From contig MKWE01000014.1 in assembly GCA_001899585.1 (NCBI GenBank), forward strand, positions 62,001-126,000: a stretch of 64,000 nucleotides of DNA, read 5' to 3'. Of this stretch, positions 37,958 to 56,167 are shown in pieces. Numbering within the stretch: position 1 is the stretch's first letter; every line of letters begins with the position of its first letter. The position numbers and the translations under genes are program-made. This DNA comes from Rhodospirillales bacterium 70-18 (GTDB taxonomy: Bacteria > Pseudomonadota > Alphaproteobacteria > Acetobacterales > Acetobacteraceae). The notes under the pieces were generated by a model, which ran no database searches, was not told where the DNA came from, and saw nothing but the letters and a program-made list of their open reading frames with translations.

Positions 37958-38929
37958 ATGCCACGACCCGAGACGAACGCGGCGGACCATGCGATGGGCG
38001 CCGACCTGATCGCCGTCGTGGTCGCGGTGACGGCGGGGGAGCCGCGCGTGCTGACCGTGGCGGACGGCAATACCGGGCTGCCCTCGGGGCCGTTCGAGCT
38101 GGGCCACCGCTCGCTGCAATCCGGGCTGCGCGCCTGGGTGGAGCGGCAGACCCACCATCCGCTGGGCTATGTGGAACAGCTCTACACCTTCGCCGACCGC
38201 GACCGGACCGGCGGCGAAAGCGGGCGAAACATCATTTCCATCAGCTATCTGGGCCTGACGCGCGAGGTGCGGGCGCCGGGCGGGCAGGAGGTGGCGGGGT
38301 GGCAGGGCTGGTACCGCTACCTGCCGTGGGAGGACCGGCGCGGCGGCGTGCCGGCGCTGATCGACGGTGCGATCGCCCCGCGCCTGCGCGCCTGGGCGGA
38401 GGCCGCAGCGGAGCGGGGGGAGCGGGGGGAGCGGCGCGACCGGCTGCACCGGGCGGCGATCACCTTCGGGCTGGACGGCCAGGCGTGGAACGACGAGCTG
38501 GTGCTGCAACGCTACGAGCTGCTGTTCGAGGCCGGGCTGGTGGCCGAGGCGCGGCGCGGCGCGGCTTGCGACATGCCGCCGACCGGCGTGCCGATGCGCC
38601 ACGACCATCGCCGCATCCTGGCCACCGGCATCGCCCGGTTGCGCGCCAAGATACGCTATCGCCCGGTGGTATTCGAGCTGATGCCGCCAGGCTTCACCCT
38701 GTTGCAGTTGCAGCGCGCGGTGGAGGCGCTGGCCGGGCAGCTTGTCCATAAGCAGAATTTCCGCCGCCTGGTGGAGCAGCAGGACCTGGTGGAGGAGACC
38801 GGGCGGATGACGGCCGAGACCGGCGGGCGGCCGGCCAAGCTGTTCCGCTTCCGCCGCGCCGTGTTGCAGGAGCGCGCGGTGGCCGGCACCAAGCCGCCGG
38901 TGGCGCGAGGCCCGGCGGCCGGGTCGTGA
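37958..38929 (+). CDS. nrtR: NrtR-type Nudix-related regulator of NAD synthesis
   Basis: 323 residues from the ATG at 37958, preceded by CGGAG. N-terminal Nudix-like domain (about 10-165) without a full Nudix box, so hydrolase activity is unlikely; C-terminal winged-helix part (FTLLQLQRAVEALAG, then QNFRRLVEQQDLVEETGR and GGRPAKLFRFR). This is the architecture of the NrtR regulators, which respond to ADP-ribose-type metabolites. It sits just upstream of nadA-nadC, the expected target. Confidence 0.8.
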   Translation: MPRPETNAADHAMGADLIAVVVAVTAGEPRVLTVADGNTGLPSGPFELGHRSLQSGLRAWVERQTHHPLGYVEQLYTFADRDRTGGESGRNIISISYLGLTREVRAPGGQEVAGWQGWYRYLPWEDRRGGVPALIDGAIAPRLRAWAEAAAERGERGERRDRLHRAAITFGLDGQAWNDELVLQRYELLFEAGLVAEARRGAACDMPPTGVPMRHDHRRILATGIARLRAKIRYRPVVFELMPPGFTLLQLQRAVEALAGQLVHKQNFRRLVEQQDLVEETGRMTAETGGRPAKLFRFRRAVLQERAVAGTKPPVARGPAAGS

Positions 38930-39000
38930 CTGGGCCGGGTCGTGACTGGGCCGGGTCGTGACTGGGCCGGGTCGTGACTGGGCCGGGTCGTGACTGGGCG
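38921..39000 (+). repeat. five 16-bp tandem repeats crossing the nrtR stop codon
   Basis: Unit GGGTCGTGACTGGGCC is repeated five times at period 16; only the last base of the fifth unit differs. The first unit contains the nrtR stop (TGA at 38927-38929), so every copy carries a TGA. The array lies between nrtR and the candidate nad operators. Confidence 0.9.
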
Positions 39001-39015
39001 GGCGGATTGACTCCA

Positions 39016-39039
39016 CCTTATACTCAGATTTAGCATTTC
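39016..39039. promoter_or_regulatory. candidate NrtR operator 1 upstream of nadA
   Basis: A 24-base element containing TTATACTCAGATT, inverted copy of the element at 39074-39097 (21 of 24 positions equal). Inside it an imperfect palindrome ATACTC-N5-TAGCAT is visible. Placement before nadA next to nrtR makes it a good candidate binding site; the motif should be compared with curated NrtR sites. Confidence 0.6.
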
Positions 39040-39073
39040 CGGTGAGGGCGCCGGCCCTCTTTCGCGGGCCGGT

Positions 39074-39097
39074 GAAATGCTCAATTTGGGTATAAGG
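39074..39097. promoter_or_regulatory. candidate NrtR operator 2, next to the nadA start
   Basis: Second, inverted copy, with ATGCTC-N5-GGGTAT as its internal palindrome; it ends 9 bases before the nadA ATG and includes its AAGG ribosome-binding site, so a bound repressor would also cover the leader. Between the two elements lies a GC-rich stem (CCGGCCC/GGGCCGG). Confidence 0.6.
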
Positions 39098-39106
39098 AAA
39101 CACCCC

Positions 39107-40087
39107 ATGATCGCCGCCGACATCCAGGCCCGCACGGCGCCGCTGTACGAGCGCGTGCGCCGCGTTATCCCGCCGGTTGAATGGCCCGCCTTCGCCGAGG
39201 ACATCGACGCCATCCTGACGCTGAAGCGCGAGCGTCGCGCGGTGATCCTGGCGCATAACTACCAGACGCCGGAGATATTCCACTGCGTGGCCGACATCGT
39301 GGGCGACAGCCTCGCTTTGGCGCGGCAGGCGATGGCGGTGGAGGCGGAGGTGATCGTGCTGGCCGGCGTACACTTCATGGCCGAGACCGCCAAGCTGCTG
39401 AACCCGGAGAAGACCGTGCTGATCCCGGACACCGCGGCCGGCTGCTCGCTCGCCGCCTCGATCACCGCGGCCGACGTGCGGGCGTTGCGGCGGCGCCATC
39501 CGGGGGTGCCGGTGATGACCTATGTGAACACCTCGGCGGCGGTGAAGGCTGAGTCCGACATCTGCTGCACTTCGGGCAATGCGCGCAAGGTGGTGGAATC
39601 GCTCGGCGTGCCGCGGGTGATCATGCTTCCCGACGAATACCTGGCGCGCAACGTGGCGGCCGAGACCCAGGTGGAAATCATCCCCTGGACCGGCCGCTGC
39701 GAGGTGCATGAGCGGTTCAGCCCGGGCGACCTGCGCCAGTTGCGCGCGGACCATCCCGGCGTGGTGGTGCTGGCGCATCCGGAATGCCCGCCGGAGGTGG
39801 TGGCCGAGGCGGATTACGCCGGCTCGACCGCCGACATGTCGGCCTATGTGGCCCGGCATGCGCCGCCGCGCGTGGCGCTGCTGACCGAGTGCTCGATGAG
39901 CGACAACGTGGCCATGCAGCACCCGGCGCTGGAGTTCATCCGGCCGTGCAACCTGTGCCCGCACATGAAGCGGATCACGCTGGGCAATATCCGCACGGCG
40001 CTGGAGCGGATGCGCCACGCGGTGGAGATCGACCCCGCCATCGCCGCCCCGGCGCGGCGCGCGGTTGAGCGGATGCTGGCAGTATGA
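39107..40087 (+). CDS. nadA: quinolinate synthase
   Basis: 326 residues, normal length. [10 protein letters not shown] at residue 46 on, [21 protein letters not shown] (in DICCTSGNA), [10 protein letters not shown] and the C-terminal CNLCPHMK; three of these Cys bind the [4Fe-4S] cluster. The enzyme condenses iminoaspartate with dihydroxyacetone phosphate. AAGGA precedes the ATG at 39107. Followed directly by nadC; nadB (aspartate oxidase) is not in between, so iminoaspartate must come from another gene elsewhere. Confidence 0.94.
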
Positions 40088-40998
40088 GCGCGGCTGCGAC
40101 CCCTCCCCCGCCTTCGGTGATGCCCCCGCCTTCCGTAATGCCCCCGCCTTCCGTAATGCCCCTGCCTTCGGTAATTATCGAGCCGCTGGTGCGGGCGGCG
40201 CTGCTGGAGGATCTCGGCCGCGCCGGCGACATCACCACCGATGCCATCGTGCCGGCCGGGCTGGTGGCCGAGACGGCGCTGGTGGCGCGCCAGGCCGGGG
40301 TGGTGGCGGGGCTGGACCTCGCGGCGATGGCGTTCCGGCTGATCGACCCGGCCATCGTGGTGGAGGTGGCGCGCCCGGACGGCAGCCGGCTGGCCCCGGG
40401 CGACGTGATCGCCACCCTGCGCGGGCCGGCGCGCGGGCTGCTGACGGCGGAGCGGACGGCGCTGAACTTCCTGTGCCACCTGAGCGGCATCGCCTCGGCC
40501 ACCGCCGCCGTGGTGGCTGCGGTGCGCGGGCACCGGGCGCGGATCACCTGCACGCGCAAGACCATGCCGGGGCTGCGGGCGGTGGAGAAATACGCGCTGC
40601 GGGTGGGCGGTGGCAGCAACCACCGCTTCGGGCTGGATGACGCGGTGCTGATCAAGGACAACCATGTCGCCATCGCCGGCGGCGTGCGCGCGGCGCTGGA
40701 GCGGGCCCGCGCGGGCGTCGGCCACCTGGTGAAGATCGAGCTTGAGGTGGACACGCTGGCGCAGCTTGAGGAGGCGCTGGCGCTGGGGGTGGACGCGGTG
40801 CTGCTGGACAACATGACGCCGGCGCAACTGGCCGAGGCGGTGGCCATGGTCGGCGGGCGGGCGATCACCGAGGCGTCCGGCCGGATCACGCCTGCGACCG
40901 CGCCCGCGGTGGCAGCCAGCGGGGTGGACCTGATTTCAATCGGCTGGCTGACCCATAGCGTGGCGGTGCTGGATATCGGGCTGGATTACCGCGGATAA
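40084..40998 (+). CDS. nadC: quinolinate phosphoribosyltransferase (decarboxylating)
   Basis: 304 residues; the family core starts near residue 35 ([20 protein letters not shown]) with [51 protein letters not shown] and the C-terminal EASGRITP and [13 protein letters not shown]. It makes nicotinate mononucleotide. The first 31 residues are extra: four copies of a PPPSVM-type hexapeptide from an 18-bp DNA repeat. Start overlaps the nadA stop (ATGA). Confidence 0.93.
40105..40176 (+). repeat. four 18-bp in-frame tandem repeats at the 5' end of nadC
   Basis: Units CCCCCGCCTTCGGTGATG, CCCCCGCCTTCCGTAATG (twice) and CCCCTGCCTTCGGTAATT encode [24 protein letters not shown]. They extend the N-terminus of NadC ahead of its conserved fold. 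Several units contain an ATG, each a possible alternative start. Confidence 0.9.
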
Positions 40999-55794: not shown

Positions 55795-55850
55795 GCGTTC
55801 GAAATCTCAGTAAAAGGCTTGGTAGATTGCCGTTTGAAAGTTTGCGGACT

Positions 55851-55930
55851 GCTGGGACAGAGGGCTTGGTTAGCCCGCTCATATACTTAATATGAGCAAA
55901 ACTGGTTCGATTCCACCGCGGTGTCCCAGC
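55851..55930 (+). tRNA. degenerate tRNA-like element
   Basis: Ends GCTGGGACA/TGTCCCAGC pair over nine bases; a D-like arm GGGC-TTGGTTA-GCCC, an anticodon-like stem and a T-loop TTCGATT follow in order. Defects: position 33 is A instead of U if the loop is TACTTAA, the T stem has only three pairs, and there is no CCA. It is either a decayed phage tRNA or a tRNA mimic. Amino acid identity (perhaps Lys, CTT) is not certain. Confidence 0.45.
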
Positions 55931-56167
55931 CGCCCGCAAATTTTCCACGAGCGTTATCCCTGAAACCTATTCGTGTCCTCTCAGGAAGTCCTGCTCTGTC
56001 CGCCCCCCTGACAACAGGCAACCCCATGAGGACGTGAGTGCGAGGTAGCGGTTCTGGTAGCCAGGAGACTATGCAGCGCCGCCAACTCTACTGACCACAC
56101 AACCGACAGCGTGCTCCAACGGAAGGGTTGGGGGAGAAGAGGGGGGAGGTGTGGCCGGTGTTAAGGA
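55931..56167. other. 237-base gap without recognised features
   Basis: Moderate GC, no ORF with a ribosome-binding site; it separates the rightward left arm from the leftward cargo genes, so both transcripts end here. Confidence 0.4.

Follow-up and report, generated by a model that had tools for sequence, protein, structure and literature searches.

The two inverted elements directly before nadA in a 64,000-nucleotide stretch of Rhodospirillales bacterium 70-18 (hereafter the window) are very probably operators through which NadQ, encoded directly upstream, would control a nadA-nadC operon. The features on which this prediction is built are as follows.

37958-38929, + strand: nadQ, a NadQ-family (COG4111) repressor gene whose product has an N-terminal effector domain and a C-terminal NrtR-type winged helix (phmmer to PDB 7q91; Pfam NrtR_WHD).
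39007-39012, + strand: -35 element TTGACT of the nadA promoter P1 (promoter scan; one site found, 0.2 expected).
39018-39038, + strand: predicted NadQ operator site 1, TTATACTCAGATTTAGCATTT, with one core mismatch to the published NadQ consensus, conserved in relatives and overlapping the promoter spacer and -10 element.
39031-39036, + strand: -10 element TAGCAT, after an 18-bp spacer, embedded in site 1 (promoter scan; commonest -10 hexamer in relatives).
39045-39065, + strand: leader hairpin GAGGGC-GCCG-GCCCTC, then TTTCG (-12.5 kcal/mol, z -2.3), a weak counterpart of the hairpin and T-run of relatives.
39049-39074, + strand: hairpin CGCCGGCCC...GGGCCGGTG between the two sites, a competing alternative (-20.1 kcal/mol when folded alone, with a non-significant z of -1.45).
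39075-39095, + strand: predicted NadQ operator site 2, AAATGCTCAATTTGGGTATAA, with one core mismatch to the NadQ consensus and the base G14 that is kept in 102/103 pairs.
39094-39098, + strand: nadA ribosome-binding site AAGGA, overlapping site 2 (read from the sequence).
39107-40087, + strand: nadA, quinolinate synthase, the predicted target gene, with its ATG at 39107 (TIGR00550, 297 bits, above cut-off).
40084-40998, + strand: nadC, quinolinate phosphoribosyltransferase, overlapping nadA by 4 bp (TIGR00078, 322 bits, above cut-off).

The sequence-only reading had named the upstream gene nrtR and the elements NrtR operators, an assignment that the protein itself overturns. By homology, the 37958-38929 product is NadQ (COG4111; PDB 7q91 family) and not NrtR: it is related to NadQ over its full length, with residues 14-317 aligned by phmmer to PDB 7q91, “NADQ transcription factor”, at E 5.9e-120, while the NCBIfam NrtR model (NF050029) reached 54.6 bits against a cut-off of 400 and covered only residues 213-299, i.e., the C-terminal winged helix. 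A search of the same protein for Pfam NUDIX gave no match even at E 10, and comparison with published motifs showed that the elements fit the NadQ consensus ttATRCTCannntGAGYATaa (PMC5343134). A Nudix-type NrtR binding both elements and released by ADP-ribose would be in keeping with the NrtR type of the DNA-binding domain (Pfam NrtR_WHD, PF21906, 75.4 bits) and with the control of nad genes by NrtR as well, mentioned in PMC5343134; set against the whole-length match, the low NrtR score, the lack of a NUDIX match, and the motif, this reading is extremely unlikely. Since the regulator is NadQ, ADP-ribose is probably the wrong effector to test. From the end of nadQ towards the nadA promoter (38917-38999), the 16-mer GGCCGGGTCGTGACTG occurs in five perfect tandem copies, the first of which includes the nadQ stop TGA.

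Next, we evaluated the elements themselves. A repeat search of the window reproduced the inverted 24-nt arms before nadA at 39016-39039 and 39074-39097 (21/24 positions or 88% complementary, 34 nt between them), and arm 2 does touch the nadA ribosome-binding site, its end at 39097 lying within AAGGA. The internal ATRCTC-N5-like motif described earlier is also present, but as a full dyad rather than half a palindrome, with one 21-bp ATRCTCA-N3-TGAGYAT per arm (39018-39038 and 39075-39095). Both sites match the NadQ consensus, with no match expected by chance in the window. Allowing up to two mismatches, WWATRCTCANNNTGAGYATWW was found three times in the window compared to 0.00 times in 100 shuffles, and in a pattern scan of the whole 5.05-Mb assembly, sites 1 and 2 were the only matches with at most one mismatch. 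Because each carries one core mismatch, the two sites may be weaker than average. The third match in the window, at 55881, was rejected: it has two mismatches, lies within a tRNA-like fold, and has no nad gene downstream. The fold is a tRNA-like cloverleaf at 55849-55932 (fold z -4.8), uncalled by ARAGORN, whose 8-bp “anticodon” stem mimics a NadQ site.

On the target side, nadA and nadC would form one operon, judging from their overlap. The genome scan detected no NadQ site at the best nadB homologue (G000:C5:67749-69365, L144), which scores below the family cut-off and lies apart from nadA-nadC; nadB was thus rejected as a target, and NadQ control here is probably limited to nadA and nadC. 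The start of nadC holds an 18-bp tandem repeat (40105-40175, 3.9 copies), encoding a repetitive PPPSVM stretch ahead of the conserved domain.

Conservation in relatives followed the nad genes closely. In a set of 80 NadQ loci, from which all betaproteobacterial loci were drawn, 65 had nadA or nadC alongside, and 63 of these 65 carried a site pair upstream of nadA or nadC, a count taken over related genomes that are not fully independent. The other two (L037 and L040) have one recognisable site each, as is also the case for L116 and L117, and one further pair was observed at a contig end (L017). No good site was detected at any of 14 NadQ loci without a nad neighbour. Of 11 same-family relatives in which nadQ is not beside nadA, nine have nadA at another place. 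In each of these nine, exact matches to the motif across the whole genome were confined to the DNA directly upstream of nadA, and eight of the nine display a site pair with the same promoter layout; in the two without a nadA hit, no match was found genome-wide. Because matches sit at nadA even where nadQ is elsewhere, the sites travel with nadA, as expected of operators. A phylum-wide pattern search added only one locus. The proposal of paired operators for the adjacent regulator of NAD biosynthesis is therefore supported, with NadQ as that regulator, and the position of conserved sites before genes of de novo NAD synthesis is what is seen in members of the NadQ regulon.

The placement of site 1 relative to the promoter is equally regular. 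In the window, TTGACT-18-TAGCAT (39007-39036) is the only promoter-like hit in 1.6 kb. Across relatives, a TTGACN -35 element starts 9-11 bp before site 1 in 84 of 103 oriented pairs, and in these 84 in-register pairs the spacer is 16-18 bp and the -10 hexamer falls on site 1 positions 14-19, mostly as TAGCAT, AAGCAT, or CAGCAT, with TAGCAT the commonest (32 times). Base 14 is not G in site 1 of 94/103 pairs, while site 2 keeps G14 in 102/103. Specifically, G14 in site 1 was observed in 0/84 pairs with the -35 element in register vs 9/19 with this element elsewhere or absent (Fisher p 3.7e-8, a value that overstates independence given related genomes, the exceptions nonetheless stemming from several separate lineages). 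These counts are most simply explained if base 14 of site 1 doubles as the first base of the -10 element, with the operator sequence yielding to the promoter. Separately, in several Hyphomicrobiales (Mesorhizobium-type loci, e.g., L007:3925-3937), the nad promoter apparently has the nadQ stop TGA inside its -35 box, TTGACA.

Over all 103 pairs, spacing falls into two classes measured start to start, a short class of 22-36 bp (58 loci) and a long class of 45-90 bp (45 loci); the window pair, at 57 bp centre to centre as well as start to start, belongs to the latter. The sequence-only reading had held that paired sites would allow looped or cooperative repression. In the looped form, NadQ at sites 1 and 2 would bridge, with the inter-site DNA looped out. 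While the conservation of two sites per promoter would agree with this, the suggestion found no support in the spacings: helical phasing is absent from the long class (R=0.04, p~0.94), a point against looping, the 57 bp in the window are well under the DNA persistence length, and starts 22-36 bp apart in the short class leave no DNA to loop. We thus consider looping highly improbable. The inverted relation of the arms could instead act in RNA, a transcript with both arms forming one long hairpin that hides the nadA ribosome-binding site and blocks translation of nadQ read-through. In the window, RNA containing both arms does fold strongly (-48.2 kcal/mol, z -5.3) with the ribosome-binding site paired, and its 21/24 inverted identity is the highest among the 103 pairs. 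However, these pairs average 15-16/24, and for long-class loci the complementarity of site 1 and site 2 within a locus is no greater than across loci (14.36 vs 14.24 of 21), so that a long two-arm hairpin is unlikely as a conserved function; moreover, transcription is predicted to start beyond site 1, so that the main transcript would hold arm 2 only. This RNA reading was accordingly set aside as improbable. The inverted relation of the arms is mostly palindromy and coincidence, and the 21/24 match is an outlier of this genome.

The DNA between the sites shows a pattern of its own. In the window, the GC-rich stretch folds into a hairpin, as had been read, and strict terminator scans called no terminator there, only TTT preceding a C after the stem. 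Among long-class pairs, a hairpin with a T-run stands between the sites in 26/45 cases vs 4.6 expected from shuffles. After removal of similar spacers, 27 of 36 had a T-run of at least 4, and in 26 of these 27 the run ended 6-12 nt before site 2, compared to a mean of 5.8 and a maximum of 15 in 20,000 draws of random placement. In L089, whose NadQ is the closest among the relatives, GATGGC-AAGG-GCCATC-TCTTTTT stands at this position. We infer that P1 transcripts would run into an element resembling a terminator, with its release point towards site 2; the long-class element may function as a terminator of the leader, coupled with site 2, and the window carries only a weak version of it. A riboswitch was rejected, as searches of the leader for an NAD+ riboswitch or another relevant Rfam family gave no match up to E 1. 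In several alphaproteobacteria (L121, L125, L126, L127, L130, and L131), the leader hairpins share a TTGA-type loop, e.g., CCGGCTTGAAAGCCGG, a likeness that exceeds what terminator hairpins need.

Given this arrangement, the hairpin and T-run of the long class may simply be the terminator of the upstream gene, usually nadQ, with no part in nadA control, a reading that is possible though somewhat doubtful. Its appeal is that 42/45 long pairs have no hairpin and T-run upstream of the promoter, so that the inter-site one may serve nadQ, and that in L109 the T-run precedes P1 instead of lying between the sites. Yet the element is retained at L130, L152, and L126 (a strong hairpin with a short T-run), all three with a minus-strand gene as the nearest Pfam-supported neighbour upstream, the T-run is tied to site 2 in 26/27 cases, and any terminator at this position should act on P1 transcripts too. 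The fixed gap between T-run and site 2, together with this persistence beside divergent genes, fits repressor-assisted attenuation, in which site 1 would shut the promoter and NadQ at site 2 would stall polymerase over the T-run, making a weak terminator efficient; we put this forward tentatively for the long class, and rate it rather unlikely. The main alternative to such attenuation is a second promoter whose -35 element overlaps the end of the T-run. A -35-like hexamer (TTGACC-like) with at least 4/6 matches does precede site 2 in 56% of cases, compared to 12% in shuffles, but site 2 nearly always retains G14, the base that site 1 gives up to its -10 element.

Within known systems, a pair of NadQ operators represents an established type of regulation. 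NadQ is a COG4111 protein with an NrtR-like HTH and an effector domain differing from that of NrtR, and the part of PMC5343134 available describes, along with RegPrecise, a regulon with 67 sites spread over 30 genomes, an average of about 2.2, in which paired sites are implicit. The system described here shares with that regulon the regulator family, the motif, the targets nadA and nadC, and a nadQ gene adjoining nad genes; the same part of the source gives the consensus and the site count, and has nothing on a -10 trade-off, on a hairpin with T-run, or on two sites in a set order. With NrtR, NadQ has in common a homologous C-terminal winged helix and the repression of NAD genes, whereas its N-terminal domain is unmatched by the NrtR model or Pfam NUDIX, and its motif and effector are others (PMC5343134). 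NadR and NiaR likewise repress genes of NAD biosynthesis or salvage according to pyridine-nucleotide status (PMC12421817). As to its ligand, NadQ is an ATP-responsive regulator according to the title of Minazzato et al. 2022 (J Struct Biol 214:107917), as cited by later papers, with structures in PDB 7q91-7q94. A literature search, whose reach ended short of the text of Minazzato et al. 2022 (which may report two sites), returned no description of the -10 trade-off or the leader element, and these two parts may thus be new.

The proteins and operators of NadR and NiaR differ from those of NadQ, and in the NadQ family NAD also affects binding. By analogy with what is reported for the family, ATP and NAD would tune NadQ binding in this organism, where NadQ is predicted from the conserved sites to bind both operators and repress. 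Since site 1 overlaps the nadA promoter at its -10 box and spacer, NadQ bound there would exclude RNA polymerase. Site 2 lies in the leader, 57 bp further downstream and at the ribosome-binding site of nadA; NadQ bound to it could block elongating polymerase, which would make site 2 a roadblock and not a partner in cooperative binding. The change of regulator from NrtR to NadQ means that a different effector is to be tested. Site 1 also provides an unusually clear case in which an operator and a -10 box share one base and the operator gives way, and through the conserved leader element between the operators, attenuation of NAD biosynthesis would become open to direct test in alpha- and betaproteobacteria.
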